Positions 3,423-26,842 of a stretch of 39,780 nt of DNA are shown one piece after another. Both the position numbers and the translations under genes were made by a program. This DNA comes from Baffinella frigidus (taxonomy: Eukaryota > Cryptophyceae > Cryptomonadales > Baffinellaceae). Below the pieces are notes generated by a model. The model saw only the letters and a list, made by a program, of their open reading frames with translations. It did not search any database and was not told the DNA's origin. Numbering within the stretch: position 1 is the first letter of the stretch; every line of letters begins with the position of its first letter. The stretch lies in contig MU646356.1 of NCBI GenBank assembly GCA_026770585.1, positions 370,819 through 410,598 on the forward strand, in the 5' to 3' direction.

Positions 3423-6400
3423 ATGAACATGAAGGGGATACAGTCGATGCAGGCATCTCGCGCGATGAAGGGCGTGCAGAGCATGGCCAAGGGCGTCGGG
3501 GACGCGTTCACAGGAGGGCGCGATCTTCACCAGCTTCTGCACGCCCTCCACTCTACGGTTGTCGCGGTCGAGGCGTACTTCGCGCAGCCGTGCTTCGCCC
3601 GTGTGCTCCCCGTGGATCTCCGTTCGTGGGCCAACTCCCTGTGCGGGGAGGCGCGGGAGGCGCACGGCCGCCTCAGGTTCCTCCCCCGCTTCCTGTCACG
3701 CAAACCTTGTCGTCTGAGCATTTGCCTGAGGAAATCTCGCATCGTCCTAACCCACCAACGCTGGTGACTCGCCTTGCAGCTTGAGAATCGATCGGATGGA
3801 GAAAGATGGAGTGCGGGGAGCAGCGGAGTCGACCTTGCACGCCATGTCCTCCGCAGCAGGTGCCACGTCGAAAGATCCTCGCCCTTCCAATTGTTGGCGA
3901 ACATGCCCCACCGAGGAACTCCACCGTGAGACAGTCGGAACGAATCAAGGCAAGGAATGCTAGCAAGCACGGTTGTAGGCGAGGGCGTGAAACGGAGCTG
4001 CGGCGCGAGAAAGAAGGTGGGCGCACTGACGTCGCACATTGCGCACCCCAGGTGCAATCACGGGTATCGCGATGCTCGACGTGGGCAGGCACATCGCCGA
4101 CGAGCTCCTCCAGATGACGGGCGCCCTCAACGACATCCTCTCCCGGTCCGTGCCCCTGGCGTGTGCTTCGCTTTGCACAGGGGCATTTCCACAGTGAAGG
4201 TAGTATATACACAGCCGTCCACGGGGTGGATAGCTCCTTTTTTTGGTACGTCGGTAGCCTAATGGATAAGGCACCGGTCGTTAGGTTATGAGCCCTGAGT
4301 TCGAACCCCGGTTCGATCTGTCAAAAAGCCAAAAAGAAAGGAGACAGAAAAAGGGGCAAAAAGGGCCAAAAAGGGGGATCCGCATCTCTGGATGGAAAAG
4401 ACTTGGTGGACCGAAAGATCAAAATGGTGATCTCCAAAAAACCCTCATAACCCTCAGAGATTCGGAGGATTTTCCGGACAGGGACAATCGCGGAGGATTT
4501 TCCAACGATTTCAGACCAGTATCTGGCGGTTCTGGACTTTTCCTAAAAGGTTCGTATATATATTACCTTATCAGTTGTTCAGGATCAACTGGGGGGGTGG
4601 AGGGTAGTATATATACACAGCCGTCCACGGGGTGGATAGCTCCTCTTTTTGGTACGTCGGTAGCCTAATGGATAAGGCACCGGTCGTTACACAGCAAAGA
4701 TTCGGTTTTGGGAGCACTCACCAATCAAGGCTTGGCGCACAAAGAGTGGTATCTTTGCACTCGCGCCGACGCGTGGGCGCATTCCGCATGCCAGAAGTGG
4801 GGCGGTGGCCGTGCGTGTTGGGCGTGTCGGTCCTGGAGGCTGGCGCCATAAGGGGCCAGGGACGCCCTTATAGGCTACCTTTTTTTAACCTCAGTGGGCG
4901 GAGCAAGTGCGCGATCTCACATCACACGAACCATCCTTTCTCACAAAAGCAGAAATGCGCCTCTTGAGCCGTATGCCAGACGCGGGGTGGTGACCGTGCG
5001 CGGCGCGCGAGCAGGGCGACGCGGCTGGTGACGCTGACCAACGCCATGATGATGGAGCGCCTTGCGCTCAAGTGCGGCATCGAGGCTGCGCAGGTACCGC
5101 GCTCCCCTGTGGAGCACGCTGCCCTGCACTTCCCAAAACGCTAGCTTTGTCTCAGTTAAGTTGACTGACTGTTCTAAAGTTGACATGCTGGGTGTTTGGT
5201 CTAAATCCGTCAACTTCTAGCTCTGTCCCACTTCGATTTCGTCTCCCCATCAATTCGCCCCCCCCCCGAAATTTATCAGGTAAATTTCATGGGGGGGGTG
5301 TCAAAATTCATCTGAGAAATTGGGGGGGGGGGCGAATTGATGGGGAGACGAAATCGAAGTGGTACAGAGCTAGAACTTGGGAGCGAGAAAGAGCCCGGGC
5401 TCACCAAATTGGTGAGCCCGAATATAATGAGACCGAGCTAGATATTCGCCCTGCATCGCGTGGATAGGAAGATAAAGCGCATCGTGCCGGACATGATGCA
5501 CCGAGCCACACATCGAGTGCCGTTCACCCTAAACCCTCAGCTCTAAACCCTGTACCCTATACCCTAAACCCTAAACCCCAAGAACTAAACCCTAAACCCT
5601 AAACCCTAAACCAAAAATACTAAACCCTAGACCCTAAACCCTAAAATACACACTCTAAACCCTAAACTCCAACACAGAAAACCGAAAGCCCAAAACCCTA
5701 AACCCTAAACCCTAAACCCTAAACCCTAAACCCCACACCCCCAACCTCACGCCCACACCCCTAAACCCCACACCCCAAACCCCAAACTCCAGACTCCAAA
5801 CCCCAAACCCCAATCCCCAAACCCTAACGACAGATGCCGGTAGCGGAGGAGGTGTCACCGCAGCTCACGCGGTTCGAGGTCGAGAACGTCCACCCGCGCC
5901 TCTGGGTCCACCAGGTACCTCCCTACCTCCCTACTTCCATAATGGTGGACGACCTAATTCCGACGGCAACCTAATTCCGGCGGTGTGCATCACCCTACGG
6001 CATCGCATGCCGTAGCACCCTACGAAACGTCGGAATTAGGTAGACGCTGGAATTAGGTTGTCCGGCAATAGGGCGCAGGTGCTGCGGAAAAGAGCATGAA
6101 CCAAAGAGGCGGTGGTGCGGAAGACGGCAAGTTTTTCCCGTCGATGAGGAGAGAGAGGGCGACGGGGCATGTGCAAGACCACAGGCCCCGTCCTGTGCAA
6201 GACCACAGACCACAGGCCCCGCAGATTCAGCGTTGAGACAAGCCCGCTTTCTGGAACCCCGGCGTGTGTGTACGGAGTCCTGATCGCAATTGTGTTAAAT
6301 GGGGGGCCCGTTTAACCTAGGCAGAGCTAGAAAGAGCAGACAGAGCATGGGCCAACGCTAGAAAGAGCATGGGCCAACGCTAGAAAGAGCATGGGCCAAC

Positions 6401-9400
6401 GCTAGAAAGAGCATGGGCCAACGAGGCGCTGTCTCTCAGGTGGAGGGCGGCAACCCGTAGCCTTGTAATCCATAATACAAATCTCTTAACTTTTGGTGTG
6501 AAAAAGATCGGTCGACCCGACGCAGGCAGCGCTAGGAAGAGCATGGACCAAAGAGGCGGTGGTGCACCACGCCAGAATGAACGGAACACCCACTGTTGAC
6601 ATCTTTCAAGGGAAACCCCTTGAATACCCAAGTCAACCACGTCAGATCGTACGTGGATGCGGTGTCGGTTTCTCCAGATCATTATGGCGTGGCACGCAGG
6701 TGGAGGACGGGTGCATCGTGGCGGGAGACAAGATGCAGGTCTCGTGGGAGACGATCGGGAACGTGCCCCTCGTCAACGTCCGCCTCAAGAACTGCATGGG
6801 CGTCGAAACCTCCCGGTAACGCCTAATCATCGCTTCCTAATTGCGGCAGTACGTATCAACCTCCCTACGGAATGCCGGAATTAGAGGAACGTGCCCCTCG
6901 TCAACGTGCGCCTCAAGAAGTGCATGGGCGTCGAAACCTCCCGGTAAGGCCCCGGTGAGGGCGGGCGTCCTAATTCCGGCGTAAACCCAATTGCGGTGGG
7001 TTGTATCACCCTACGGTACTGCATACGGTAGCACCCTACGGAATGCCGGAATTAGGGGAACGTGCCGTTCGTGAACGTGCGCCGCAACCACGCCAGATTG
7101 CAGGTGGGGGTTGATTTTTTAAACCCCTATCAGGATAGGGTTTGCAACTTTTGAAAACCATTGCCTTCAGGGAAAATTGACTTTTGGCAACCCCTTCCAA
7201 GAATCTGGCGTGAAAGAAGTGCACGGGCGTCCAGACCTCCAGATAAAGCCATCAATTCAGGTTTGACAAATGAAGCTGGGAGCGACACTTTTGAAAGAAG
7301 GTGGGGGCTCTCTGGGAGGGCCCCGAGAGGGGCTTCAGAAAGTTGTCAGGTGCCAGGACCATGAAATCATAACCTGTTCGGTGTCTCTTCCTGGAAAGGA
7401 AGAGACACCGAACAGGTTATGATTTCGTGGCCTGCACGCATAACTAAGGGCGAATCTAGTTGGAGAGCGTCGTGAAATATATATGTGCCAGGTCAGAATT
7501 CACCTGTAGCGAGGCAGGGAGGTGGTAATGTGGTTTGCTTCGTCTGAAGGGAAATATATTCTGCGCGGGGAAAGCCAGGCTCGAGGATAGTGACGGTGCA
7601 GATGCCACGGCCACTTGGCACCCACCGGGGGCTTCACGCATACAGTCCATCCAAACGATGTGTACTAGAATCGTATCCATCGTTATGGATTCCAACGGAT
7701 TTTCCCCCGGATTTCCGGCGGGGGAGAAATTCGGCGCCTGCTGAGTGGGTAGAAGAATCTCTGGACCTGTACCGCAGGCCCCAACCTCCCGAGCCTCTCT
7801 GCAGGGGATTTTGTAAAGTCAGTCGACTATTATTCAACCCTGCTCCCGAACCCCGGCGCAGGGGAAAGACGGTACAGCGGTTGACAAAAGAGGAAGGGGA
7901 GACAAACATCTCGCCCGTCGAGACTACCATCCCCCTCGACTTTGTCCCGGTAAGCCCTAATTTCGGCCTCAACCTAATCCCGAAATTAAGCCAGCGCGGT
8001 CTGATCAAGAGTAAGGGTCGACACCCGAATCCATGCATCTACCTGTTTCCGGCGTTCTGTAGCACCCTACTGTGTTGCCTACGGTAGCACCCTACGGAAT
8101 TCCGGAAATCGGTTGATGCCGGAAGTATGGCGTCCACCCGTACTTGCGACCCGCCCGAATCACGCGGCAACCGTTCGTGTGGTTCCTAGCTCTGTCCCAG
8201 TAAATTTGGTCTCGCCATTATTTCGCCCCCCCTCCCCGAAAATTTCTCAGGTGAATTTCGACACCCCCCCATGAAATTTACCTACGAAATTTCGGGGGGG
8301 GCGAAATAATGGCAAGCCCAAATCTAAGTTGAACAGAGCTAGGGTTCGTGCTCGGTGCAAGCAAGCAAGCACCATACTTGCGCGGTGCGAGGAAGCAACC
8401 TGCGCCACATGCTCCCCCGGATACATTATTAGCAACTCCTCTAAGTTGCTTACCAGCTTGCACTACTGATCCAAATCTTTGCACACCCGCTCACCCGGCA
8501 CCTTCTCTCCTCCCAGGGCCCTTCTCCCAGGGCAAGTGCACAGTGGCGGTATGAGATTCCGCGCCGCCGCGGGTTCAGAGTCTGGACCTGCAGCGCGACT
8601 GCATCTTGATGTCACGCCGCATGCTCCCTCGTGATGCATTATCAGCTACTCATCCAAGTTTCTTGCCAGCGTGTTCCACTGATCCAAATCTGTGTACATC
8701 TTTTCGCCCCGCACCTGCCCTCCTCCCAAGGCAAGCACACAGTGGTGGTATCCGATCGCATCCTCCCTGCCTGGAAACCTCCTTCGTCCTGATGTACCAC
8801 TCGAGGCTGAAATAGGGCGCATTTTAAATATGGGGATGTAGACATTTGTACGAGTCGCGGGCAGGGCGTGGACACGTATTTGCTGGATATCCCGCAGATA
8901 CGTGCCGATCGCATCCTCCCTGCCTGGGAACCTCCTGTGTCTTGAGGGGAAGTAGGCATGCTTTGTGTGGAGGATGCGATTTTGAACCGCCGCAGTCTGA
9001 ACCTGTTGCTTGACTAGATCTTGATCTTTCTCTCTCGCGCGCGCGCTCTCTCTCTCTCTCGCTCTCGCTCTATCTCTCTTTCTCGCTCGCTCTCCCTCTC
9101 CCTCGCTCTCTCGCTCTCTCTCTTTCTCTCTCGCTCGCTCGCTCACTCCCCTCATCCCCTCCTCCCAGGGCAAGTACACAGTTGCGGTATCCGACCCCGC
9201 GAACAACATCCGGGGCATGACGTTCGTCTCGATCCTCCGGCCAATCTCGGTCGCGGACATCACCGACCCCCCTACAGGTGTTCCTCCTGCCCAAACACAC
9301 CTCCCGTGCGCCGGCATTGATGAGCGTAGGTCTAGGGCTCCTAAGGTTGAAGCAGCGTGTCCACGAGGGTGCCCCGGCGGTACCGGCATGACCGATCCGC

Positions 9401-12400
9401 CTACAGGTACGCGTCTATCACCTGCACGCACCTCCTCTGCGCCAACGCCGCTGCACCCTCCGTCACGGGGCCTCCCCTGGACCCTCAGGCCCCGGTCCCC
9501 TGGGAATCGACTACAGCTCCTTGACGCGTGTGCGTACTTGAGGCTCGACCGTGGTCGAGGTGCCAGGAGGTAGCCTTTGGGGTTTATGGTTTCGATCTCG
9601 GTGCTCTGACCTGACGGTTGCGTTCCCCCATGCGCGCCGGGACGGTTGGGGCGGTCGCAGTGAGGTCGGGCACCGAAAGCGAAACCCCAAACACTGAAGC
9701 CTCAAGTGCAACAGGGTTGGGGCGGTCGCTGGTCGGGGGGTGGCGCACCCCGACGTGGAACCGCGGCACCCCCCACCGCATCTGCTGGAAAATGCACCGC
9801 GGCAAATCCCAGGTTTCTTCCACGCGAGGCTCCCCATGCACACAGAATAAATGTCGCGTGTAAATGTGTGTAGTAATTTCGGGTGTTTGGTCACGTGGCC
9901 TGCACTCTTTCTGTGCAAGTTGGTGACCAATTGTCGACTGTGGGCGTGTTTCCTGGGCAATAATCCAATGATTGACTTAGAAATGTTTTCACAAGGGTAG
10001 CCTCGTGTGGGCCCCACCGCATCTGCTGGAAGATGCACCGTGGCACGTCCCAGGTCCGTTCCTGCACCCGAAACACGCAACACGAGACACGAAACCCGAA
10101 ATCCGAAACCCGGAACCCGAAACCCAGAACCCGGAACCCGAAAACCGAAACCCGAAACCCGAAACCCGAAACCCGAAACCCGAAAGTCTCGTGATTCGTG
10201 AGAGTAACAAAGAAGCAGAAACACGAAGACACAGCGGCGAGGCGCGCACCGCTGCCGAGCGAGGACGGGACATAATCTTGAAACCTTTTGCCTGAATCCA
10301 AGGAAATGGACTTTGAAGTTGAAAAAGCTGAGACCGGATTTCCGGCATGAGCTTTTTTTTTTGCGCCGAGTTCGCTCGACAGCGGACCGGGGCTGACCCA
10401 GTGGCGCTCGGCAGGTGGTTGTGGTGAGCCTGGCGATCGCAATGTCCGCGGAGGGATTCGATCGTCTCTTTGCCTGAACCACTTAGCAGCGACCGAGTTC
10501 CTTTCCTCCCGGATATCCGGGGGAACCGCGGTTAGAATTCCAGGGCAATGGATAAGATTCTAGCACAAATCGTTTAGATGGACTGTATCCGTGAAGCCCC
10601 CGGTGGCTGCTGAGTGAGGGCGTTGTTCGGCAGGTGATAGTGGTGAGCCTGGCGATCGCGATGTCCGCGGAGGGCCCCTGGCGAGGCGCGCACCGCTGCC
10701 AAGCGAGGACGGAACATATTTTTTTGAAAATTCACCTGAACCCAAGGAAAAGCACTTGTAAACTGAAAAATCTGACACCGGATTTCCGGCTGGAGCTTTT
10801 ATTCGTGTGCCGAGTTCGCTCGACAGCGGACCGGGGCTGACCCATCGGCGTTGGGCAGGTGATAGTGGTGAGCCTGGCGATCGCCACGTCCACGGAGGGA
10901 CCCTGGCGGATGCTGCGCGGAGCCTCGGAGCTCAAATTCAGAGCCCCGGATTTCAAGCCGCCGCCCGGATCCACCCCGTCGCAGACCATCCCGGTACAGC
11001 CACACAGCGGACTTCGAAGTGATGTTGAATAACCCCTGAGCGATAAGACCTGGGACCCTACGGAAGGCAACGCGTAGGGGCATAGGGGGGTTTCTACGGA
11101 TAAGGTAACGGAAAGGCTGCCCGACTTCAAGGCGCCGCCTGGATCCACCCCGTCGCAGACCATCTCGGTGAATCCCTAGATCTGCCTGAGTTTTGTTCTG
11201 GCTCGTCCTGAAGGCTTTATGTTCGCCCTTTTGTACTGGATTTCTGCTCTGAAATACTGTTAAGAACGGGTCAGAATCAAACCCAGACATAGCAAGAATT
11301 CGCAGCTAAATGCAGGCAAAGTTGTTTTTCTTTTAGAATCTGGCAACGACAATTAATAAGAAATTCTTTATTTTTGTATGACCCAATTGAGTTGTAACTT
11401 TCGTTGCCAGACCTGCCAGACCCCCCGCCCCTCGTTCCTAACAGCATCCCGATGCTGTGGTGTTTGCCACACAAGTGGGCTTCGAAAGAAATTTCGGCCA
11501 TGTCGGTTAATAAGTTGTCTTTGCACCGAGCATCCTTTTGGTAGTACCACGAAAATACGTGGGCCGATCTGCGAAGCCCACCGTGTGGTCGGGCCACAGC
11601 CCGCGGTAGAACCCTCTTGCCTGGGCCCTAAGAGTCTGGGGATACAGTCCCGTGCAGGATGACCGGTGTGACTTCACCACACGGGACTGTATCCCCAGAA
11701 TGAGTCGCCGACCTAATCGCGGCGAGTATTTATGATAAGCATGGTGCGGCAAAGAAATTTACTACCCAGATGGATCATACTAGTAATCTTAAAATCATTT
11801 GTGTACCAAAACAAATTACCGTCACATGTTTATCCAAAATACTCGTCCGGATGAGATCTGTGAATGCCGCGACCCGTGCAGGTCTCATTCGACAACCAGG
11901 CCAAGAATGAGTCGCAGATCGCTGAAATTCGGGTGGTGATAATTCAGGGATTGTTTATGTTTGTGTATTGTCATTTAGTTGTGCAAAGTATTCATTTTTT
12001 GATGCGTCCGAATTAAAATTGATGGCCGCTGAGTGCCGCGTCCCGTGCAGGTCTCATTCGACAACCAGGTGAATCAGGCAAGCGAGGGGGCCAAGACGTG
12101 GATGCCGAGCGAGGACCCTGCCACGCCGCAGTGGTGCGAAAAGTCACCAGACGCATCTCCGGTGCGCCAAAAGTCACCATAGTTATCTTGCGGGCCCCAC
12201 GCCACGTGCGCGGTCTCTCGAAGCCTCGCCTAGTGGCCATACGTCTCAAGGTAGTGAATTCACTGTAAAATCAGAGGATTTGTACCAGATTACGGCCTGG
12301 TCAAAAGACGCAGACGTATAGCCGCTAGAGCTACTGGAACGATCGCCTGGCATCCTGACGCCCGCCGTCTTGTTTTTCTTCTTTATTAATCGCATAGCAT

Positions 12401-15400
12401 TCTGAAACGTGATCAACTTAGTGCCCACCACCGCTCTCCATACCCGGAACCTGGCCGAACCTTGCTGGAAGCTACAGGCGAGCGTCTTGCGGAAAACCGA
12501 ACCCCTGAACCCGAAACCCGAAACCCTGAACCCGAAAACCGAAAACCTGAACCCTTAGCCTGAAACCCTCACCCCGAAACACGAAATCCTGAACCCTGAA
12601 TCTGCAGGCGAGCGCCTTGCTGGAACCCGAACCCCTGAACCCGAAACCCGAAACCCGAAACCCGAAACCCTGAACAATAACTCTGCAGGCGAGCGCGGTG
12701 CGGGAGGCGAGCGCAATGCCGGAGGCAGGAGCAGCGTCGGAAGAGGTAGCGCGACCCGGTTTCTGGTGTAGTGTTGAGGATTCAGGGGCCCCAACCTTTT
12801 GACAGAACAAGCTCCCCGCCGCAGGCGTTCCCTCAACCCGCAACCCGAAACCCAAAACCCGAAATCCTGAACCCGAGACCCTGCACCCGAAACCCGAAAT
12901 CCGAACGTGCGCACTGCCACACCCACTGCATCATCGACGTGAATTCACTAGTATGATCCACGTGTGTAGTAATTTTCTTACGCAGGAAAGGCATTATTTA
13001 GAACATTATCTCAGATAAAACTGGTAGCCACGCGGAGGGATATTTAGCCAAGTTGTACCACATTGGCTCTAACCAGTTGATGAACGCAGGATGTCCCGGT
13101 AGAGTGGGGGCAGCCGGCCGCAGAGGCGCGCGCGGCACCGGCGGGCGGGCCCGATCAAGAGTGGTACGGGGAGGACAACAACGGCAACGCGGCCGCGGTC
13201 CCGTCGATGGTGTCGTCGGCGGGCGCTGCTCTTTCGGGCGCGTTCTGGGGGGGGTGGAAGATGCCGGTGAGATACAATTTGTTTGAATCTCCTGACACAA
13301 TTCGGTACTTTCGGGAAATCTCCTAAATACAATTTCGGGAAATCTCCTATATACATTCGGTTCTATCTCGTAGATACATTTCGGTTGCTGTTTATCTTTG
13401 TGTCAAATCCGCTTTCCTTGGTGCGTCCATTCTTCCACCCCTGGGTTCAATCTCGAGAGAAACATCAAAAGCAGGACCAGGCACGCTACGCTACGTTGTG
13501 TGCTTTCCGGATGTGCGATCGTCCGCCTCGAGCGTTTCCAGTGGTGAGAGTTTAGGGAGAGGGTTTCGGGTATATCTGCGGGATGCTGCGGTGAGAGTTT
13601 CGGGTTTATCTACGTGCAGGCAGGTCGGTCCAAGATAATCTCGGTGATCAAGTGGATCCGGACAAGAGGATTGACACTCAAGAACTCTTTCTCTGCGTGC
13701 AGGGCGGGGCCGGCTCGCCAGGCCAAGCGTTACCCGCGCCCGAGAGACCGACCGGGCCTGTCATTTCTCTGCCGGAAGCTGAGCGCTGTCGTCATTTTAT
13801 TGTATTATTATTAATAACAATTGTATTATTATTGATAGTGATTTCTCGTGGCGAGCAGGGCACAGCGGGTTCGCCAGGCCAAGCGTTACCCGCGAGATGC
13901 TGAGCGCTGTGGCGTGCATGGTCGCCAGGCCAAGCCTTACCCACACACCCTTCTTGCAGGGTGGCGCGGGATCGCCAGGCCAAGCGTTACCCGCGCCCGG
14001 GAGACCCACCGAACCTGTCATTTCTCTGCCGGATGACTTTCACCTCTCCGACTCTCTCTGCCTTGATTGCAGGTCTGCCCCTCCCCCCCCCCCCCCCCCC
14101 CCCCCNNNNNNNNNNNNNNNNNNNNNNNNNNNNNNNNNNNNNNNNNNNNNNNNNNNNNNNNNNNNNNNNNNNNNNNNNNNNNNNNNNNNNNNNNNNNNNN
14201 NNNNNNNNNNNNNNNNNNNNNNNNNNNNNNNNNNNNNNNNNNNNNNNNNNNNNNNNNNNNNNNNNNNNNNNNNNNNGCCCTTGCCCTTACCCCTGCCTTG
14301 GCCCCAGCCCGCGGATATTCCCGCCTCGTCAGAAGTTGGAGACAGGGGCGGGCCTATCCCCGGACAGTACTCACACATGCTGAACACTGCTTTCTGTTGC
14401 GGCAGCTTCTGTTCAACTCGCTAACCACGTCAACTTTCTAAACACATCAACTTACTAACCACGTCAAGTTACTAACCACGCACCATGCGGTGTGTCGGCA
14501 GCTTCGACTGGCACGTGCCGATTGAGCTGGAGCCTGGGAAATACCTCTTCCGCATTTCTCCGGTAACCCCCGAACCTCTCCCCATCTTCCGCATTTCTCC
14601 ACTTCTTTCCCCCCGAACCTATCCGTTCCTTGTGAAGGGTGTAGGGTGTAGGGATCAGGGTGTTGAATATGTATCCACACCCAACTCCCACCGAGAATCA
14701 ACACCGTGGTGTGCTGCACCTGAAAATACCTCTTCCGTATTTCTCTGGTTCGTTCCCCTCAAAACTCTCCGTTCCTCTTGAGGGTGTAGGGTGTAGGGCG
14801 TAGAGTTCACGGTGTCGAATGTAGGGTGTGGGGTGTAGGGTGTAGGGTGTAGGGTGTAGGGTTGAGAGATGAGGGTGTCAACAGAACCTGCGCGGTGGAT
14901 GCTCAGTGCTGGAGGGACTCAAGAGGTAACTCGCCGGCGATTGGATCCACACCGAAAGTCAACACCACCGTGTGAAAGTCAACACCACCGTGTGCTACAC
15001 TTTTGCCGGAATGCGTCGTGAGTCGCAGCTTGGCGAGCGCACTGGCACCGTGCGAGGTTATGTGCTACTACCCCTTACGTGGCGATGAGGTCATGTTTCA
15101 CCTCCAGGGCGTAGGCCCCTTTAGGTCCTTTAGGTTTTAAATGCTCCCAACATAGCCCAACGACACGCCGTTCCGTAGAAGGGATCTGCAGAGCAAAGCA
15201 CTGCGTGGGCCCACGTAGAAGCGTAAGACACTGCTCGCCACAGCAGGGGTCGTTGTTTATGGTGGGGCGCCTGGCGAGACCACGCCAGGTCACAAGTCGC
15301 AATTTATCTCAAGTTAATTCGTGATTTCCCCCCCGGGAAAATTCATTCCTGGGCGCAATCATGTTTGGTTTGCACCAGTAAACCCCTTCAAAAGGAGGGA

Positions 15401-15869: not shown

Positions 15870-15890
15870 CACCTGCCTCTCGACGTCGCA

Positions 15891-16011: not shown

Positions 16012-16114
16012 GCACTCTGGGGATAAAATCCCGTGTAGGATGACCGGAGTGACTTTACACAGTAGCACCCGCCTCCGACGCCTTTCTCCGTCGACGGATT
16101 TGGAAAATTAAGCA

Positions 16115-16235
16115 TACAGGGGTGCCTCGCCCATAAAAAGGCGCCTCATCCTAGGACCCTACAGTAGGGCTACACCCAGGGCCCTATGGTGGTCCTAAGG
16201 GGGGTGCGCTTTGTCATGAGCGAGGTACCCCTGTA
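16115..16235. mobile_element. TACAGGGGTACCTCGCTCAT element, copy 2
   Basis: Termini tacaggggtgcctcgcccat and atgagcgaggtacccctgta. The core is gtagggctacacccagggccctatggtggtcc. More diverged than copy 1 and in the opposite internal orientation. Confidence 0.75.
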
Positions 16236-16330
16236 GCGCCTCCTGGCGACGCCGCTATGTACTCTCGGCCGCGTTGCTCCTCAGTCCCGCTGCGCTCCTC
16301 AGTGGGGGGGCGTGCGGCGCAGTAGCTGCT

Positions 16331-16430
16331 CCTTAAGTGGCGAGTAGGCGCATACCCCCCTACCGTAGGGCCCTAGGACCTGCCTAGGACCTCTTGCGGG
16401 TCAATTTTGACCCCCTCGCCACTGAAGGGA
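16331..16430. mobile_element. CTTAAGTGGCGAGTAGG element, copy 1
   Basis: Starts ccttaagtggcgagtagg and ends cctcgccactgaaggg. The core ctaccgtagggccctaggacctgcctaggacc resembles the core of the TACAGGGG family. Full relative: 26169-26274. Confidence 0.75.
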
Positions 16431-16665
16431 TACTGTACCCCATCCGGGGCGCGCTTCGCAGTACATGTAGCTAACCCGTACGGCGCGCTGGAGCGTTGCT
16501 GTGTAAAGTCACTCCGGCTGTTCCTGCACGGGCGTGGCCCATACACCAGAGTCTTCGCGCGCGAGGAGGTGTGTCAGGGCGCAGGATGTGAGGACCCGGG
16601 GCCGGGGAATTGGGCCCTTTCGTAAAGGAAGCAACCTAGTCAGGGGCTGCTCTTGAGGATGCATG

Positions 16666-16827
16666 CCACACGGCGGGCTTCGAAGGGATTGTCGGCCCAT
16701 TTTGATCTGAGTTTCCGTTACCTTATCCGTAGGAACCCCCCTGTGCCCCTACGGGTTGCCTACCGTAGGGTCCTAGGTCTTATCGCTTAGGTGTTATTCA
16801 CGAATTCCTTCAAAGTCCGCTGTGTGG
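16666..16827. mobile_element. CCACACAGCGGACTTCGAAG element, full copy
   Basis: Ends ccacacggcgggcttcgaag and cttcaaagtccgctgtgtgg, inverted. Inside: ccgttaccttatccgtagg, gcctaccgtagggtcctagg and ttatcgcttaggtgttattc. About 162 bp, non-coding. Relatives at 11000-11116 and 19857-19980. Confidence 0.75.
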
Positions 16828-16829
16828 TG

Positions 16830-16960
16830 CAGGGGTGCGAAGTTCCTACCTCGCGCACAAGAAACCGCGCCCCCCCCCTAGGACTACCGTAGGGCCCTAG
16901 GCATAGGCCTACTGTAGGGTCCTAGGGGGGGGGGGGTCCTATGAGCGAGGTACCCCTGTA
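16830..16960. mobile_element. TACAGGGGTACCTCGCTCAT element, copy 3 (left end damaged)
   Basis: The right end atgagcgaggtacccctgta is intact. The left end is broken (caggggtgcgaagttcctacctcgc). It directly abuts the element ending at 16827. Confidence 0.65.
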
Positions 16961-17167
16961 GGCGGGAGGGGTGTGGGCGCCTTGGTTTGAATTCAATCGG
17001 CGCTGTGTGACGGTTTCTGGTCTCATTCGTGGTACAAATTGCCACTTTATCCACGGCAAATAAACCGCATGTTCAAATAACCCGCTAACTCCACGGTGAG
17101 AAGCACGGGGGCCGTGAACGGCACAAGATCCCCTGAAGGAGGGAGAGAACGCGGCGTGGTTGGCAGC

Positions 17168-20100
17168 ATGGCAGCGAGAAGATCAACTGCGACCGCCGAT
17201 TCAGATTCCGCCAAGTCGGCAGTGGAGAAGACCGCCGCTGCCTCACCCGAGAAGCTCCCAGCGAAGAAGCGTGCCGCGGCCCCAACGAAACCCTCGCCGT
17301 CCGCGGCCGCAGAGAAGAGCACGGCTGGTGGAAGCGGGAGCAAGCCCGTGAAGCGCACCGAAAAGCAGGCCGCTGCGGCGGAGGAGGCCACAGAGGCGAC
17401 AGCGATGCCCAGCCCGCCTGCACGCGTGAACAAGCCCGAGGCGCGGAAAGCGCCCCCGGCCAAAGATAACAAGTTTCCGCTATGGATCGTGCTCGTTGGA
17501 GCGCTGGTCGTGGTCGGGGGCATGTGGATGTTGATGAGCGCGCCGGCGGGGGGGAAGGTCGGTGGGAAGGGGCCCGTGAAGAAGGACACGGTCAAGAGTG
17601 GAGCGATGCTGGAGCGCCGCGAGAAGCTCAAGGGGTCCGTGCCCTGGCCCAGATGCGTGAACACTGCGAGTTGCAAACGATGTTGCGCACGCAGCATGTG
17701 GCAGTGGTGGTGACGGTGCCTGCCGCCTGCATGGTTTTCGTGCACCAGGATGGAATCTCTACGAGGCACCGAGTTACACCCCTAGAACACACGCTTGGCA
17801 TGCCTAGAAGACACGGCACCTTGACACGCCTAGAACACACCGCAGGTTGCTCAAGAGCACCTTCATGGAGGGTGAGCAAGCGGTGGCCACCAAGATCGTC
17901 CGACAGGTGCGGCACCTCTCCGTGAATACCTTTGCAGGGGCGGGTTGGAGGGTGTAGGCTCTTGGACCTCGCAGGTGGGCGCGAGGGAGGTACCTGAAAG
18001 CATGAGAAACTCGCCAACGAACCCGTCCGCTCCGCATCCTCATCTTCATCCGCATCCTCCTCTTGTGGTGTGTCGCGGTTCGCACCTGTCGAGCGAACCG
18101 CGGAGACTCGGTTCAAGGCGGGAGCAACTCACGAGCCTACAGAATAGCTCCCGCTTCCATCCGCCGTTCCGCCGGCTGAAGGCGGGAGGACGTGTCCGGT
18201 GGGCCCGGGTGGGGCAGGTGCTGCAGCAGTTGGTCCAGGCGTGTTATCAGCCAAATAACATCTGGGCGGTACAGTACGTGGTGCTGCGCAACGGCAGGCA
18301 GCGCGAGGCGAATACGCTCAGTCCAATAACATCTCTCTCTGGGCGAGGAGGCTGGTGCTTCCCCGCATGATTTGACCAGCCTTTCACGTGTAGGTTCTGC
18401 TGGCTCCTCCTCCGCATCATCATCCGTGAGTGTGTTGCTAGACCTAGCAGGTGGCGACGGGATCACGTGCCCGCGACTCAAGGCGGAAGGACGTGTGCGG
18501 GGAGGCATTTCATCCAGGTCTGTCACTAGTCGAATAACATCTGAGCGGGTGCTTCATTCCCCCCCCCACACACACAGAGAACAATGTGTATTGGCGAATA
18601 ACAAGCCTGGATCAAAACGCAGGTGCTGCTCCGCAACGACAGGCAGCTCGATGCGAACACGCTCGGCCAAACAATCTCTCTCTGTGCGGGGGGGGGGGGG
18701 CTGCTGCATTTGATCCAGACGTGTCATGAGTCAGTAAACGCCTGTCTCTCTCTGGGCAGTACGGTAGGTCCTGCTGCGCAACGACAGGCGTGACGCGAAG
18801 ACGCTCGGCAAAATAACATCTCTCTCTGGGCGGGGGAGCGGGTTCTGCTGCGCAGGGTTTGACCAGCCTTTCACTGGTAGGTTCTGCTCCGCAACGACAG
18901 GCAGCGCGAAGCAAAGACGCTCACGCGCGCGGTGGTCTTCCTCTTTGCCGGTGGCGCCTTCAACGCTTACGAAAAGGTGTCCTCCCTCCACACCCGCGAG
19001 ACAAAGATTCAGTCCAGGATAGTTGTCACTAGTCGCAGCCTCACACGTGATTTAGAAAGCTGCGAAAAGTTTTCCTCCCTCAAAATGCTCGGTGCACAAC
19101 CCTGGATAGTTGCCACTGGTCGTTCCACACCTCCATGCCTCCCTACACACATCCACACATCCACGCATCCACAACTCCACAGACAGCTGCGAAAAGCTCC
19201 CCTCCCTCCAAATCCTCGGTGCACAGATTCAAACCTGGTTAGTTGCCACTGGTCGCACCCGCGTCACCACCCGGGATTTTTGGGGGGGGTTGATTGATTT
19301 AATTAGGATTCATAAGTAAAGTTACTTAGGATTCACAAGTAAAATTACTCGTGGTGGATCTCGCTGCACGCCCAAGAGACTTGCTGTGTGCGTCGAGTGC
19401 CGAAACTCTGGGGATACAGTCCCGTGTAGGATGGCCGGAGTGACTTCATCCCCAGAGACACGCGCGTCGATTCGCTGCCCTTTGCCCCTGCGGTGGTTCT
19501 GTCCCTTATTTTCCTCTGAACCCTTTTAATGAATTCTTTTCTGAGAGCGCCGCGTTTCCTGCGTCCTCACCCTACGAGAAAGGAAGAAAGCTTCACCCTT
19601 CGAGAAAGGAGAAAATCCTCGCCCTTCGAGAAATTAGGAAATCGTCCGGAGGGCTGAAGCACACCCCGCGTGTCTGCAGATGGAGCACGTGATCCAAAAG
19701 CACGTCCTCGGCGGGAGCCAGAAAGGTGCGCCTCTCTCAAACCCTAACCCGAACCCGAACCCGAACCCTTAGACCCTACACGCCACACCCTACACTCGAA
19801 CTGTGAACGCTACAGTAGTTCACTTGGAACTCTCTGCGACGCTTGACTACATTTCCCCACACAGCGGGCTGCGAAGGGAAAATACGTTCGTACAAAGGGA
19901 AAATATGTTCCCTGCCGTAGGGTCGTAGGTCTTATCGTTTAGGGGTTATTCGAAATCCCTTCGAGGTCCGCTGTGTGTGGCCTGCGACTCTGGACAACCT
20001 TTCCACAACAGCCTCATCCTGCCTCCCTGCTACACAGACCAGACAGTTAGTGTTTAGGGTTAACGTTTAGGTTTGGGGTTTGCGTATAGGATTCATGGTT

Positions 20101-22877
20101 CAGGGGTTTGGGTTCAGGGTTCAGGGATTAGGGTTCGCGACTGTGCGCCGCCGAGGGCCAGCAGAAGCACATAAATCGTGCAGCAAAGTGGATCGGCCGT
20201 ACCTGGCGCGTGGTCAGCGTACGGCACTAACACCTCAACAAACAACCTAAACCCTGCACCTTAAACCATAAACCCTAAAACCCTAAAACCATAAACCCTA
20301 AACCCTAAACCCTAAACCCTAAACCCTAAACCCTAAACCCTAAACCCTAAACCATAAACCCTAAACCCTAAACCCTAAACCCTAAACCCTAAACCCTAAA
20401 CCCTAAACCCTAAACCCTAAACCCTAAACCCTAAACCCTAAACCCTAAACCCTGAACCCTCAACCCCAAACCCCAAACCCCAAACCCCAAACCCAAACCA
20501 CAAACTCTAAACATCAAACATCAAACCCCAAACCCAAACCCAAAACCCAAAACCACGAACGGCAGGGCTCCTGGAACTGGCGTCGGGCGAAGAGGCGTTC
20601 GACTCGGTCAGCGACCCTACACCCTGCACCCCAAATTCTAAATTCTAAACCCTATACCCTAAACACTAAACCTTAAACCCTAAACCCCAAACACTAAACC
20701 CGAAACTCTTAACCCTGAACCCTAAACCCCAAACCCTAAACCCTAAAACCCTAAACCCTGGTGAGCAAACCTTTCCCCAAGACACCATCACTCACAAACC
20801 CCTCCGAATCTTTCCCCAAGAAACTACACAAAACCCTCTCCTCACCTTTCCCCAAGAAACCACACACAGCCCCCGCCTAACCTTTCCCCACGCCACCACA
20901 CACAACCCCCTCCTCACCTTTCCCCAAGACACCACGGACAACCCTCTCCTTCGCGCACGTCAACTCGCGCGCCGCCGCTGCCGTGTGCGTGAACACAACC
21001 CTTGCAAACACCAAGTTCGCCGAACTAATCCCACCGCGGTTATCCAAACAGCCGCAGTAATCCCACCTCGGTAATCCAAATGGGGGGGGCTGCACCACAC
21101 CCCCTGAAACGACCATCGCTGCAGTAATTCCACCGGGGGGCAGTCCTGGGTGCGTGGTGCGTGGTGTTTTGTATCACACTCGCATCGCCTCGCACTCCTA
21201 CCTACCTGGCTGCTGAAGAGATAGGCGCCAATCTGCGTCTGAGCTCGGCCTAACTGTGGGGGGGCGCAGCCTCCTTCTTCGTCTGTGTCTTCAATAACCT
21301 CGGCCTCCCCAAAAGTGATCAACTTGCTAACTAAGCACCGTTCGCATGCAGAGTTTGCGCGGCGCAGTCACTGAGCAGCTGAAATACTTCCCACCCTCAA
21401 CCCTAAACCAGAAACCCGAAACCCGAAACCCGAAATCCTGGAACATAGGGTCTGCGCGGCCGCGGACCCTATGTTGGCAGAGCAGCAGCCATCCTTCCCG
21501 CGCTCTATCATCACCCCCCTATATCCTCTGGGCCGCACCTGAGCCGCAGTCATCCCAACGGGGGAGGGTCATAGGGGCTAACTCCGGGGACGCATGCAGG
21601 CTCTGCGCGAGGCGGTGGCTTGCCAGCTGAAAGACTTCTCACCCTAAATCCTAAACCCTAAACCCTACACCCTACACCCTACACCCTACACCCTACACCC
21701 TACACCCTACACCCTACACCCTACACCCTACACCCTACACCTTGGACCCTAAACCCTAAACTCTAAACCCTAAACACTAAACCTTAAACCTTAAACCCTC
21801 AACCCTGGGACGCAGGGTCTGCGCGGGGCGGTGGCAGAGCAGCTGGAGAAGAACCCTCGCTCAGTGATCATCCTCCGAAACGTCGACCGCGCTGACCCCG
21901 AGATCGTAAGACCCTCCCCCCCACACACTGTGGACTATGGACCTTTTATCGAAAGTCAACTTACCCTGTGGGAAGTTAACTGTAAGGATTTTCGAACCAC
22001 GATCTCGGTGACCCCGAGATTGTGAGACCCCACCCACCCACGTAGAAGAGCTGGTCCATTGGAATCCCTCTTGGTCTTTTCTTCCCGCCAACAATCCCTC
22101 TTGCACTTTTCTTCCCGTGATGACTTGTGTTTTCAGGGTTTAAATCCTAAACTCGGATGGCTTGTGTTTTCAGGGTTTAAACCCTAAACTCTGATGACTG
22201 GTGTTTTCAGAGTTTACACCCTACACCCCAACACTAAACCCTGATACAGAAATACGAAACACTGAACATTGAACCCTAAACCTAAAACCTAAAACCTGAA
22301 ACCTAAAACCTAAAACCTAAACCCTGAACCCTCAACACCAGCTCTACGACCTGGAGGATGCGTTCGAGAACCAGGAGATCCAGGTGCCCTCAACCCTTGA
22401 CCCTAAACCCAAAACCCTAAACCACAAACCCCACACCCTAAACCCCAAACCCCAAACCACAAACCACAAACCACAAACCCTACACCCCAAACCCTACACC
22501 CCACACCCCACACCCCACACCCCACGTCCTAGACCCAAACAAACGCAAACAAACACAAACAAACACAAACACAAACACAAACACAAACACAAACACAAAC
22601 ACAAACACAAACACAAACACAAACAAACACAAACACAAACACAAACACAAACACAAACACAAACACAAACACAAACACAAACACAAACAAACACAAACAC
22701 AAACAAACAAACACAAAAAAAACCTAAACCATAAACCATAAACCTCACACCCAACCCTCAACAGCACGCGGGCAAGAGCATCGACTGCCGGCGCGCTGTC
22801 TTCATCCTCGAGACCAACCTCAACTCAGGTCCAGAGAGACAGAGACAGAGGGAGAGAGAGTGTGTGTGTGTGTGTGC

Positions 22878-22941
<64 letters not shown>

Positions 22942-22967
22942 AGAGACCAACCTCAACTCAGGTCCAG

Positions 22968-23000
<33 letters not shown>

Positions 23001-26000
23001 CGAACCTCAACTCAGGTTTATATGTGCCCTCAGCACATGTGATGTACATATACGTATATATACCCTCAGGTGGCGATGTTTGCGCTGGCCACGAGACCAC
23101 CCTCAACTCAGGTGCAGAAAGACACGTCAACGCATCACCACTTAAGTGGCCAGTAGGCTCATACGCCCTACCGTAGGGCCCTAGGACCTGCCTAGGACCT
23201 ATCGGGGGTCAATTTTAACATCAACTCAGGTCAGGCCGTTCTGCTTGCCTTCTTTATGACTCTCGATGCAGGTCCTAGATAGGCCCTTAAGCCTTGATGG
23301 CAATCCTCAACGCAGGTCTAGAAACAAACATCAACGCATTCTGTACATCTTCTTCTTCTCTGCTTTATTAATCTCACACAGGTCCTAAAAAATGGTAAAA
23401 CCCAACCTGAGGCGTTGAAGGACCTTTATTGTATCACTCAACTTAAAGGCTTTCTCAACTTAAGGATTTTTAGGATCCAATATTCCACTTTGGCATTCTA
23501 TGTATGCTGTTCCTTGGTCTAACACTACAGATGTCACCACCATACCTGTGCCACCTTCTTGACTTCTTCCAGGGGGGTCTCCCGCACGTGCGCAGGTTGG
23601 TTGTGATCAGTCAACCACGCCGGGTTGGATGATTTTGATCAGTCAACTGACCGGCGGGGGTTGGATGCGTGAAGAAAGACCGGGTGACTGACTCGCTTCC
23701 TGCGACTGTTGACAGTTGACTGATTGCTCTGCGATGGCCAACACGCGTCAGGCGCCCGAGGCAGGAGAGCCTGTATGGGAGGTGATCGATCGCACGTGCG
23801 GGAATGCGGTGGAGTTGTGGCGACTGTTGAGTGTTGACTCATCGCTCCATCTCCCGGGTGTAATCCTGCGGCGTCTGACTCGAATCAAGAGTAGCGGGGG
23901 TCGTGTCGGTAGCGCAACGATGCAACCATGTACGATGCACACGGAGCCGTCATGCCGAGCGGCATGACGCTCATCATTCGCTAAACGCACCTCTCTCTCT
24001 CTCTCGCTCTCTATGTTTCTCTCGCTCGCTCTCTCTCGCACACACACACACCACGCGCCACCCCCCTCCCCTGCGCGCGCGCCAGAACCTGAAGCATGTT
24101 GGCACGTCTCACACCAGGGCCTACGCTGATAACCTGTCCACCCTTGATTATCAGCGGTTAGCTCATAACCTGAAAACTACGGCAGCTGATATAACAAGCC
24201 TACGTGGGCAGGCGGGGAGGTGTCGGCCAAGGCCGTTCGTGCTGCCGCCTCGGTAACACCCCACCCCACCCCCTCTCCAACCGAGAATAAGGAATAGGGA
24301 GTTTTTTTGCGCTGGGACGGTTTGCGTCTGGGGTTGGAGGCAGGGGGGGGTGCGTCCGCTGAGCACGTTGCCCTTGTGTTAAGGGGGCTGAGGTTGGGGT
24401 TTTGAGGTGTGGGTTCGGGACTCCGGATTCAGGACTTAGGGTTTGGGTTTTGTCAGGCGTATAGCTCATACGGGTCCCCGGTATGAACAGAGAGTAGCGA
24501 ACAGAGAGTAGCGTTGGACCAGGCAGTGATGGCTGCCTCGCCTGCTTGGTGCAAGACTGCCCACCGATCCCTAGATTCGCACATTCGTGGTGGCCTGGTG
24601 GGGCACAAGAGTCAGGCGCGCTGACACTACGAGAAATCACTGGATGACAACCGACACCTTATCCCCGCCCATGTGGGCGGGGTCATAGAACATTCTAGAA
24701 CATTCTAATTGACTTTCCCCGTCAATTTCAAGATGAAACAAATCGAGTTTTCTCCGAAAGTAGTCACAAATTGTGAACTGACCGCTATTCCTTTTTTCGA
24801 TGCAGCGATTCCGCGTAGCAGGTGTGAGTGATGGCGCTGTGTTTTCAGCGTGTCTCTTCCCGGAGAGTCCCGGGTGCCTGCTACAGGGGTACCGCGCTTA
24901 TAAGAAACCACCCCCCACTAGGACCCTACAGTAGGACTACGCCTAGGGCCCTATGGTGGTCGTAGGGGAGGTGCGCTTTATTATCCCTAAAGTGGCGAGG
25001 CGGTCAAAATTGACCACCCAAAGGTCGTAGGAAGGTCCTAGGGCCCTACGGTAGGGTGTATGAGCCTACTCGCCACTCAGCGTATGGCATGATGGGGCAC
25101 AGGGGTTCAGGAGCTTGCAGTGCTAGGCAGGTCCCAGGGTCCTACCATAGGGTGTTTGAGCCTACTTGGCACTTAACGCATGGCATGGGGGGCTGCAGGG
25201 GTTCTGGAGCCGGCAGGCGTTCGTGGCCCGCGTGCGCGAGGCGGTCAACCCGAAACCTGAAACCCTAAGCCCTCAATCCCAAACCCTAAACCCTACACCC
25301 TACACCCTAATACCTAATACCTCATACCTAAACCCTAAACCCCAAACCCTAAACCCTAAACCCTAAACCCTAAACCCTAAACCCTAAACCCAAAACGCTG
25401 CACCCGAAACCCTGAACCTTGAACCCTAACCCCTAACCCCGAAACCCCAAACTCCAAGCCCGAAACCTGAAACACGAAACACGCAAACCGAAAACCGAAA
25501 ACCGAAACACGAAACACGAAACACAAAACACGAAACACGACACCCTGAACCCGAAATCCGAGACACGAAACACGAAACTCGAAACTCGAAACCCGAAACC
25601 CGAAACACGAAACACGAAAACCGAAAACCCAAACCCAAATACCGAAACCCGAAACCTGAAACACGAAAACCGAAAACCTAAACCCTACACCCTGAACCCT
25701 AAACCCTGAACCCTCAACACTAAACCCTAAACCCTAAACCCTAAACCCCAGGTGCCCTTCGAACACAACCCGGAGGAAGACGAAATGGGGTTTGGTGGTA
25801 TGGGGGGCATGGAGGGGATGGAGGACATGATGGCAGGAGGGATGGGGGGGATGGACGGTGGCGAAGGTGGTCTGAACCCTGAATCGTGAACCATGAAACC
25901 CTGAACTCTGAACCATGAACCCTGAAACTTGAAACCTGAAATCCTAAACCCTAAACCCTAAACCCTAAACCATACGAGCTCGCGCACCCTAAACCCTGAA

Positions 26001-26125
26001 CCCTAAACCCTACACCCGAAACCCGAAACCCGAAACTCGAGACCCGATACCCGAAACCCCAGACCCGAACCCCTAAACCCTAGACCCGAAACCCTCAAGG
26101 TGACTACGGCGGCGGGGATTACTGA
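17168..26125 (+). CDS. Membrane-anchored Clp/torsin-like pseudo-AAA+ protein
   Basis: Exons: 17168-17634, 17846-17906, 18881-18976, 19681-19726, 20566-20606, 21816-21905, 22342-22383, 22765-22828, 23765-23808 (tentative), 25199-25243, 25752-25866, 26100-26125 (TGA); about 378 aa, all phases joining. ATG at 17168 has context AGCATGGC. Residues 1-102 are a Lys/Ala/Ser-rich histone-H1-like tail. One membrane helix, about 103-123 (FPLWIVLVGALVVVGGMWML), predicts type II topology. Next comes a Clp-like module: FMEGEQAVATKIVRQVL in place of the IGQ-helix; AGGAFNAYEK (about 199-208) where Walker A GPTGVGKTE belongs, so GK[T/S] is lost; SVIILRNVDRADPEI, where Walker B DE is replaced by R258-N259; GKSIDCRRAVFILETNLN, matching Clp GRTVDFRNTVIVMTSN with the sensor-1 Asn kept; and SRQAFVARVREAVPF, matching Clp RPEFLNRIDEIVVF with the Arg kept. 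The Met/Gly-rich tail ends GGDYGGGDY. Its architecture recalls torsin activators such as LAP1, by inference only. Confidence 0.75.
18279..18925 (+). repeat. Four copies of an exon start (three decoys plus the real one)
   Basis: The start of exon 18881 (AG|GTTCTGCTCCGCAACGAC with AGGCAGCGCGAAGCAAAG) is echoed at about 18279-18319, 18621-18664 and 18766-18816; the last two keep an AG acceptor. Copies are linked by repeats of ataacatctctctctgggcg and gatccagacgtgtcatgag. Confidence 0.8.
19406..19457. mobile_element. CTGGGGATACAGTCCCGTG hairpin-family fragment
   Basis: ctctggggatacagtcccgtg then taggatggccggagtgacttc, closing with atccccagag. Same family as 11635-11699, with a shortened right arm. 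Intronic. Confidence 0.6.
19857..19980. mobile_element. CCACACAGCGGACTTCGAAG element, copy 3
   Basis: Ends ccacacagcgggctgcgaag and cttcgaggtccgctgtgtgtgg. Inside: gccgtagggtcgtaggtcttatcgtttaggggttattc. The middle is shorter than in 16666-16827. Confidence 0.7.
20040..20760. repeat. Interstitial telomere-like tract, mixed orientation
   Basis: 20040-20140 is G-rich (ttagggttaacg, gggttcagggttcaggg), whereas 20235-20560 and 20620-20757 are C-rich. The latter includes about 25 near-perfect CCCTAAA units at 20286-20450, the purest array in the window. The 41-bp exon 20566-20606 sits between two C-rich blocks. Confidence 0.9.
20761..20960 (+). repeat. About 40-bp tandem repeat
   Basis: Degenerate units of cctttccccaagacaccac followed by acacaaccctctcctca, at least five copies. 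The last runs into gcgcacgtcaactcgcgcg, which is open but not in a frame I could join to the gene. Confidence 0.7.
21343..21640 (+). repeat. Two decoy copies of an exon start upstream of the real exon
   Basis: Exon 21816 starts GCAG|GGTCTGCGCGGGGCGG, TGGCAGAGCAGCTGGA. Copies: GCAG|AGTTTGCGCGGCGCAG, TCACTGAGCAGCTGAA at about 21349, and GCAG|GCTCTGCGCGAGGCGG, TGGCTTGCCAGCTGAA at about 21599. Both keep the acceptor and about 36 coding bases, then dissolve into telomere-like repeats. Confidence 0.85.
21640..21805. repeat. Telomere-like tract with CCCTACA array
   Basis: CCCTAAA units flank about 12 near-perfect CCCTACA units (about 21663-21740), ending just before the acceptor at 21815. Confidence 0.9.
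22180..22735. repeat. Telomere-like and (ACAAAC)n tracts flanking a 42-bp exon
   Basis: CCCTAAA/AACCTAAA variants at 22200-22335 and 22390-22530, then (ACAAAC/ACAAACA)n at about 22545-22712. The exon 22342-22383 is embedded between them. Confidence 0.85.
22805..23340 (+). repeat. Donor-side echoes of exon 22765-22828, with microsatellites
   Basis: The exon end GAGACCAACCTCAACTCAG|GTCCAGA recurs at about 22944-22972, 23000-23019 and 23093-23116. Weaker copies (AACATCAACTCAGGTCAGG, CCTCAACGCAGGTCTAGAA) are at about 23217 and 23302. Between copies lie (TG)n at 22859-22897 and (AG)n at 22898-22940 and 22973-22999. Confidence 0.85.
23139..23219. mobile_element. CTTAAGTGGCCAGTAGG element, truncated
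   Basis: Starts acttaagtggccagtaggctc, with core ccctaccgtagggccctaggacc. It stops at gggggtcaattttaa without the right terminal repeat, and an exon-end echo follows. Confidence 0.65.
24882..25078. mobile_element. Chimera of TACAGGGG and CTTAAGTGG elements
   Basis: 24882-24983 is the left part of a TACAGGGG-family element (tacaggggtaccgcgcttat...) without its right end. It joins directly to 24984-25078, a complete CTTAAGTGG-family element in reverse (ccctaaagtggcgagg to cctactcgccactcag). A partial second copy of the latter is at 25126-25177. Confidence 0.65.
25250..26095. repeat. Telomere-like tracts around the penultimate exon
   Basis: CCCTAAA, CCCGAAA and ACACGAA variants fill 25250-25750 and 25870-26095 on both sides of exon 25752-25866. 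Confidence 0.9.
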
Positions 26126-26168
26126 TTTCTGAGTATGGCGGGCACTGAGAGACGTGGGGGTGGAAGCC

Positions 26169-26274: not shown

Positions 26275-26316
26275 AGGAGGGGACAGAGGCAAGTGCACCG
26301 GGGGAAGTGCTTTCAC

Positions 26317-26753: not shown

Positions 26754-26842
26754 CGGACACATCATGGTTTTTCAGAAAAACCATGCTTCTTTTCGGATCA
26801 CATCAACCCCGCCCACGGGGCTGTCTTCGTGGACTCTCTGAG

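Follow-up and report, generated by a model that had tools for sequence, protein, structure and literature searches.

Copies of exon borders in introns of Baffinella frigidus and a tandem-duplication reading of intron growth

How does a long intron come to hold copies of the border of its own neighbouring exon, splice site included? The question is raised by two adjacent genes of the cryptophyte alga Baffinella frigidus, which lie in a stretch of 39,780 nucleotides (positions 370,819-410,598 of contig MU646356.1, in a genome of 382 Mb), hereafter the window, whose numbering is used throughout unless a locus is named. Intron lengthening is mostly ascribed to transposon insertion. A first-pass annotation of the window proposed recurrent tandem duplication across the exon-intron border. 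Here we describe the copies, their recurrence in other genes, and a reading to which we assign a probability of about 0.62, namely that the introns of intron-rich genes grow by recurrent local tandem duplication that spills across exon borders.

Exon-edge copies in the two genes

Exon-edge copies are present in the introns of the window. Comparison of the window with itself by BLAST revealed diverged direct repeats that tie introns to the border of the adjoining exon (Table 1). In the window alignments, copies at donors carry the last 13-58 exonic bases followed by GT, and copies at acceptors carry the first 12-74 exonic bases with an AG that is mostly intact. For the window and the loci sampled elsewhere (see below) taken together, the splice dinucleotide was intact in 52 of 56 copies (93%, against about 0.81 expected from identity), which bears out the first-pass annotation on this point; the count excludes the rows for acceptor 15780 and for locus L041 at offset 438.

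Exonic sequence was also compared on its own by Smith-Waterman alignment of 42 exon edges with 21 introns and with 50 shuffles, using a gene model without exons 3780-3859 and 9715-9812. The adjoining intron was the best of the 21 for 14 edges, two of which (3676 and 20606) did no better than shuffles, and nine of the 42 edges scored more than 6 above the highest of the 50 shuffles. When the annotated exon model was used, a clear copy was found in nine of the 23 introns and in eight of the 13 among them that measure at least 690 bp; the copies are real, but the earlier statement that almost every long intron contains them was too strong.

Ten of the 14 borders named in the first-pass annotation have clear copies, four have weak ones (9277, 12689, 15780 and 25199), and two borders with copies, donors 9812 and 21905, had been overlooked. 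Acceptor 18881 is clear by self-BLAST and alignment and lies outside the edges covered by the Smith-Waterman tests. The acceptor listed at 10866 belongs to an exon whose annotated start is 10859; its copies lie at 10415 and 10634, and the repeat at 10236-10456 combines about 180 intronic with 42 exonic bp. Among the weak borders, donor 9277 scores 26 against shuffle maxima of 23 and 25, acceptor 12689 scores 23 against 21 and 20, and acceptor 15780 scores 25 against 22 and 25, becoming clearer when the intron side is included (46 bp at 85%). The copy at 12608 contains an unbroken TCTGCAGGCGAGCGC, shares TCTGCAG/GCGAGCGC (the slash marks the splice border) with acceptor 12689 and is adjoined by a telomere-like array. 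At acceptor 25199 the exonic part by itself is not above the shuffle maximum, and this border is less sure because the joined frame of the second gene breaks ahead of it.

Chance similarity as the source of the copies was rejected by the shuffle test and by the comparison of own flanks with other families described below. An assembly artefact of merged haplotypes is unlikely, as most copies differ and sit in ordered arrays. Full alternative exons were rejected for the window, where each copy includes a single border and breaks off within the exon.

Table 1 Exon-edge copies, exon models and one hairpin element in the window
Feature	Position	Strand	Basis
Copy of exon 6700-6815 end with donor	6886..6951	+	56/58 exonic bp identical (6886-6943)
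Poorer copies of exon 6700-6815 end	7056-7087, 7214-7250	+	self-comparison, alignments
Weak copy of exon 9169-9277 end with GT	9378..9406	+	24/30
Copy of exon 9715-9812 end with donor	10012..10055	+	91% over 44 bp, self-BLAST
Copy of exon 10859-10993 end with donor	11120..11169	+	90% over 50 bp, self-BLAST; clear, 43/48 exonic bp
Copy of exon 14502-14562 end with GT	14724..14749	+	92% over 26 bp; clear, 21/22 exonic bp
Third copy of exon 14502-14562 end, without GT	near 14585	+	by eye
Copy of exon 21816-21905 end with GT	22000..22041	+	81% over 42 columns
Copies of exon 22765-22828 end with GT	22943-22961, 22997-23017, 23089-23124	+	self-BLAST, Smith-Waterman; clear, 19/19 exonic bp
Copy of exon 9169-9277 start with AG	8519..8563	+	84% over 45 bp, self-BLAST
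Second copy of exon 9169-9277 start, AG changed to AA	8718..8755	+	89% over 38 bp
Copy of intron end and exon 10859-10993 start	10236..10456	+	84% over 223 columns to 10680-10900
Second copy of exon 10859-10993 start with AG	10625..10683	+	91.5% over 59 bp
Copy of acceptor and exon 12051-12161 start	11861..11900	+	95% over 40 bp; clear, 19/19 exonic bp
Weak copy of acceptor and exon 12689-12745 start	12601..12625, exon start 12608	+	24/37 bp
Copy of exon 13960-14072 start with AG	13698..13776	+	90% over 79 bp, self-BLAST; clear, 52/60 exonic bp
More copies of exon 13960-14072 start	13851-13894, 13922-13942	+	alignment
Weak copy of acceptor and exon 15780-15869 start	15655..15699	+	85% over 46 columns
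Three copies of exon 18881-18976 start	18274-18320, 18621-18664, 18763-18806	+	self-BLAST, alignment
Two copies of exon 21816-21905 start	21343..21619, exon starts 21352, 21600	+	self-BLAST
Weak copy of intron end and exon 25199-25243 start	25028..25120	+	80% over 93 bp to 25124-25216
Gene 1, exons 1-13	3423..13266	+	identity with P0001, 493 aa
Gene 1, exons 1-6	3423-3676, 3780-3859, 4052-4145, 5015-5093, 5834-5914, 6700-6815	+	P0001
Gene 1, exons 7-10	7862-7949, 9169-9277, 9715-9812, 10859-10993	+	P0001
Gene 1, exons 11-13	12051-12161, 12689-12745, 13090-13266	+	P0001
Gene 1, last exons with stop	13960-14072, 14502-14562, 15780-15869	+	past end of partial annotated protein
Gene 2, AAA-type protein	18881..26125	+	model of this study; splice sites AG/GT
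Gene 2, exons	18881-18976, 19680-19725, 20566-20606, 21816-21905, 22342-22383	+	model of this study
Gene 2, further exons	22765-22828, 25199-25243, 25752-25866, 26100-26125	+	model of this study
Intronic hairpin element	19855..19980	+	directly flanked by 21-bp imperfect direct repeat, non-exonic

The spliced exons of gene 1 from 3423 to 13266 translate identically to the hypothetical protein T484DRAFT_1933209, partial (P0001), of B. frigidus, which was retrieved when the gene 1 protein served as query; the borders up to 13266 are therefore those of the public annotation. The gene has a homologue in Guillardia theta (P0003, 46%), and its last exons read FDWHVPIELEPGKY..FVTIA*, which by eye match the ends of P0003 and of another protein, P0005. 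The intron that separates exons 13960-14072 and 14502-14562 contains an assembly gap of 171 N (14106-14276), which follows a run of C. Our model of gene 2 covers the exons from 18881, the first exons, from 17169 on, lying outside it. Up to 22828 the product matches AAA_2 (PF07724) with 28.6 bits against a cut-off of 27. Between 22828 and 25199 the joined reading frame is interrupted, which means that the model lacks an exon or misplaces a border in this part. Neither P0001 nor window 38398-39024 had a match in a Pfam scan.

Recurrence in other gene families

In order to look beyond the window, 82 loci from five Pfam families were sampled, each a conserved coding stretch with up to 1.5 kb on each side. 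Kinesins were represented by the best 30 of 45 matches and kinases by the best 30 of 108, a best-scoring choice that favours long exons; searches with PF03028 and PF12774 gave few matches (3 and 9). Some loci overlap (L012, L014 and L018; L040, L047 and L048; L084-L090), and all of them were counted. Minus-strand loci were left unturned for the own-flank comparison and were turned for the counts of hairpins, arrays, extent, deeper homology and direction. Splice sites in the loci were placed by hand from GT and AG close to the profile match; the copies were visible at that stage, so the placement was not blind.

A direct match between a coding stretch and its own flanks was found in 19 of the 82 loci at 40 bits or more and in 17 at 50 bits or more, against 23 and 1, respectively, of 5336 pairs from different families. 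The excess of similarity to adjacent over non-adjacent exons on which the first-pass proposal depended is thus present in this sample. Inverted matches numbered one at 40 bits and none at 50 bits, so that the repeats are direct and local, as expected of tandem duplication by break repair. Their side is equally consistent: of the matches of at least 40 bits, 29 of 30 upstream ones fall closer to the start of the exon and 21 of 22 downstream ones closer to its end. Short coding stretches, up to 200 bp, were positive in 16 of 39 cases (12 of 20 for kinesin, 1 of 8 for chaperonin, 1 of 1 for kinase, 2 of 10 for dynein) and longer ones in 3 of 43.

HSP70 was added as a sixth family (17 matches), from which one gene, on contig C226, was sampled, picked before its sequence was seen. 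A module of about 60 bp, comprising the acceptor and the start of the third exon, is present in four copies upstream of the true one (L091, 1-2821), and by eye three of these copies have the same exonic end base. The second exon of this gene showed no clear copy. Separately, contig C709 carries two whole-profile HSP70 matches with equal scores (130108-131931 and 132798-134621), each a single open frame, in opposite orientation and about 0.9 kb apart.

Local tandem duplication and its rivals

Several pairs of copies have a tandem structure. In four of the seven loci shown the units adjoin, which is likewise expected of break-repair duplication in young cases, the match being no shorter than the offset (L030, 1594-1909 and 1847-2177; L041, 1074-1344 and 1308-1548; L045, 1537-1870 and 1789-2123; L048, 1575-2080 and 1944-2449); many other pairs have unrelated sequence in between. 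Border-spanning pairs with a long intron-side match occur in the window (10236-10456 with 10680-10900) and in L087. These two kinds of pair, with the other genes, support the earlier proposal of recurrent intron growth by duplication across borders. By eye, a common sequence follows the exon 18881-18976 start in all three of its copies, and the shared inner ends of the copies at this exon and at HSP70 exon 3 suggest later array growth. Local direct repeats cover 21% of gene 1 and 18% of gene 2, against 2% of the 13.7 kb downstream (26126-39780) and 0% of the 5' flank; in the sample, coverage is 32% for positive short exons and averages 6% (median 0) for long ones.

We propose that segments ranging from a few tens to a few hundred bases would be duplicated again and again in intron-rich genes. 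Where such a segment spans a donor border, the first copy would keep the exon with its GT, and where it spans an acceptor border, the last copy would keep the AG with its exon; the exon would stay whole in both cases, and the spare copy, left unselected inside the intron, would then decay. The duplications may arise when staggered breaks are repaired with fill-in of their overhangs, hairpin elements or telomere-like repeats may at times be joined in between the copies, and arrays may then grow by unequal recombination. The intron side would be remodelled fast, and the exon copy would stay readable since the exon is conserved.

The exon edge itself, which the first-pass annotation took as the defining feature, is not supported in that role: the same duplication runs through the introns, and exon overlap is slightly above a null in which the exon mask was shifted circularly around the gene (window exons, gene 1 annotated to 13266). 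Fourteen of 23 repeat families touch an exon against 9.05 expected (p 0.011), as do 6 of 12 simple families against 3.62 (p 0.085), and 22 single intervals overlap exons against 16.6 (p 0.14). At 36 bits, 9 of 47 exonic edges had copies, as did 7, 11 and 12 of 46 intronic tiles beside borders, some of which hold the copies themselves; outside genes, 7 of 276 tiles had direct and 21 inverted matches. Strong targeting of exon edges was rejected on the circular shifts and on intronic tiles scoring about alike. Because an exon copy should outlast an intron copy in readable form, this slight excess calls for no targeting. Copies that match over a long stretch on the intron side seem younger than those that do not, with an exonic identity of 0.926 (n=12) against 0.885 (n=32, short match).

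The best surviving alternative, possible though improbable, is that each copy pair is a target-site duplication of 20-80 bp, made when a hairpin or telomere-like filler inserted at an exon border; such an insertion would be harmless enough to persist, the exon and its splice site being restored by the duplication. Bearing on this and on the main reading alike, direct repeats scoring at least 40 flank 11 of 104 hairpin elements against a null of 0.24% from mismatched flanks, and 13 of 177 telomere-like arrays against 0.7%; owing to overlapping loci the 11 hairpins amount to about eight separate elements, and the arrays share this redundancy. Anchored flanking repeats scoring at least 20 occur at 8 of the 104 hairpins, again against 0.24%. 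In L045 a 115-bp hairpin lies exactly between 76-bp repeats of 96% identity, made of 23 intronic and 53 exonic bases, and the repeat flanking the window element at 19855 is purely intronic. Insertions of telomeric repeats with direct target duplication at staggered breaks are also reported for mammals (PMC7215372, PMC2246262). No flanking repeat reaches a score of 40 at the remaining 93 hairpins, however, several copy pairs are tandem with nothing between them, and the divergences in L045 (0.96 for the copy pair, 0.88 for the hairpin pair) fit a tandem unit equally; an older neighbouring unit allows either origin, insertion or tandem unit, for this hairpin. A long target duplication as a general feature of hairpin elements was rejected at 11 of 104.

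Telomere-like arrays (CCCTAAA and variants) occur in window introns at 5561-5829, 20232-20499 and 25326-25472, after each copy of the exon 21816-21905 start, and in loci L009-L090. CCCTAAA lies on the sense rather than the antisense strand in 17 vs 1 cases in the window genes, and in 184 vs 9 and 87 vs 15 cases in short-exon and long-exon loci, overlapping loci included; in CT-rich loci, where the gene strand is not known, the arrays number 2 vs 4. Sense CCCTAAA may offer CTAAAC as branch-point-like sites, and the other strand TTTAG as acceptor-like sites. By eye, the element between exon 10859-10993 and its copy at 11120-11169 has a reverse complement near 16670-16840. Short elements are repeated at 5944-6040, 6960-7056 and 8041-8135, at 15899-16012 and 16847-16961, and at 23141-23219 and 26174-26252; such families recur in introns and between genes, some with terminal inverted repeats. 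A 90-column repeat (96%) within one intron, at 4196-4283 and 4600-4689, is tRNA-like by eye and is possibly a tRNA-derived short element.

Several observations weigh against local tandem duplication. We infer staggered breaks from copies that have diverged. Repeats are not confined to introns, because the intergenic stretch at 15900-17100 has 26% direct and 34% inverted repeat coverage and eight CT-rich loci have 18% direct-repeat coverage. Kinesins make up 12 of the 16 positive short exons outside the window, several of them from one gene, and their heavy weight leaves the rate for ordinary genes uncertain. Nine intervals end 0-6 bp past an exon edge against 1.26 expected, a number reached in none of 4000 shifts. 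In 29 of 56 copies no more than 5 bp match on the intron side, against a median of 42 bp for the exonic match. Of 32 copies with at most 8 bp matched on the intron side, 20 have related sequence deeper in the flanks, unequally displaced, which speaks for the duplication reading, though some of these matches may be to other copies of the same edge; the other 12 have no related intron sequence, which plain duplication and decay explain poorly. Remodelling beside the splice site probably accounts for many of the copies that end at splice sites, not for all.

These ends at splice sites, short intron-side matches and 12 copies lacking deeper intron homology are what would be expected if breaks or insertions were directed to splice junctions, for instance where RNA:DNA hybrids limited to the exon have their edges, or through an introner-like element, with the exon copied only up to its GT or AG. 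We regard this as unlikely: the younger copies do have intron homology, exon overlap itself is not enriched by the interval count above, no common motif was noticed at the inner ends, and the elements between copies vary from case to case. Just as doubtful is a related form in which duplication would be guided by the junction, through hybrid borders or a junction-seeking element, so that introns would grow from their edges inward and sense CCCTAAA filler would supply branch-point-like and pyrimidine-like 3' ends. That the copies are functional, as alternative or regulatory splice sites under selection, is very improbable, for although GT and AG are intact more often than identity predicts, a stop would result from use of the gene 1 copies in all but one of 11 cases, P0001 uses none of the copies within its span, and exonic identity runs from 77 to 100%.

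The copies are thus not purged as decoys, given their intact splice dinucleotides, and a reading as decoys rather than alternative exons fits the annotation and the stops. The first-pass annotation had foreseen frame-dependent use; this was not borne out for gene 1, where 10 of the 11 decoys would bring stops regardless of length modulo 3. The mutually exclusive exon pattern (a whole exon with both splice sites and an open frame) was not found among the window copies; near-whole exon copies may exist elsewhere, as in a kinesin on contig C506 (L047, 107/114 bp).

Relation to known systems and meaning for introns

Local tandem duplication has a counterpart in mammalian cells, in which breaks with protruding ends lead to tandem duplications (PMC5730883; Schimmel 2021, PMC8355091); Vaughn and Bennetzen 2014 and Schiml 2016 are cited for small tandem duplications via PMC5730883. 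The likeness lies in direct repeats, sometimes with repeated rounds or inserts, and the difference in that our case is drawn from diverged exon-border copies in an alga. Interstitial telomeric repeats are inserted at mammalian double-strand breaks, and staggered breaks can duplicate the target (PMC2246262, PMC7215372). Telomere-like arrays inside genes, some between direct target duplications, are common to both; the arrays described here are degenerate, frequent in introns and nearly all in one gene orientation.

Tandem duplication is also a source of new introns (PMC2891723), a process that shares with ours exonic sequence and splice signals duplicated in tandem. Here, however, each copy includes a single splice site of an intron that already exists and sits within that intron, with no new intron seen; a new intron between two AGGT copies in coding sequence was not found in gene 1, where the exons on either side of the copy-bearing introns are joined in P0001. 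Introners make new introns with repeats of 3-9 bp at their insertion sites (Gozashti 2022, PMC9860276). They resemble our elements in carrying inverted repeats within introns of an aquatic protist, and differ in that no shared whole-intron element or new intron position is shown here. Short flanking repeats of that kind were not found in the clearest cases (76 bp in L045 and 21 bp at window 19855). The elements lying between copies are not alike, and neither end of the L045 hairpin (TAGAACAG..CTCTA) has GT or AG. The case is best filed as a variant of tandem duplication, acting as a builder of long introns. Among the open-licence matches listed, obtained partly with narrow terms, no title or abstract was found that describes exon-edge copies in cryptophytes.

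The process leaves readable marks, since the exon copy is held by selection and the spare copy drifts; each border is therefore a clock and a record of the breakpoint. Such introns also present a natural test of how the spliceosome chooses the right site among several near-identical ones a few hundred bases off. Repeated local duplication would leave apparently unused splice sites in long introns.

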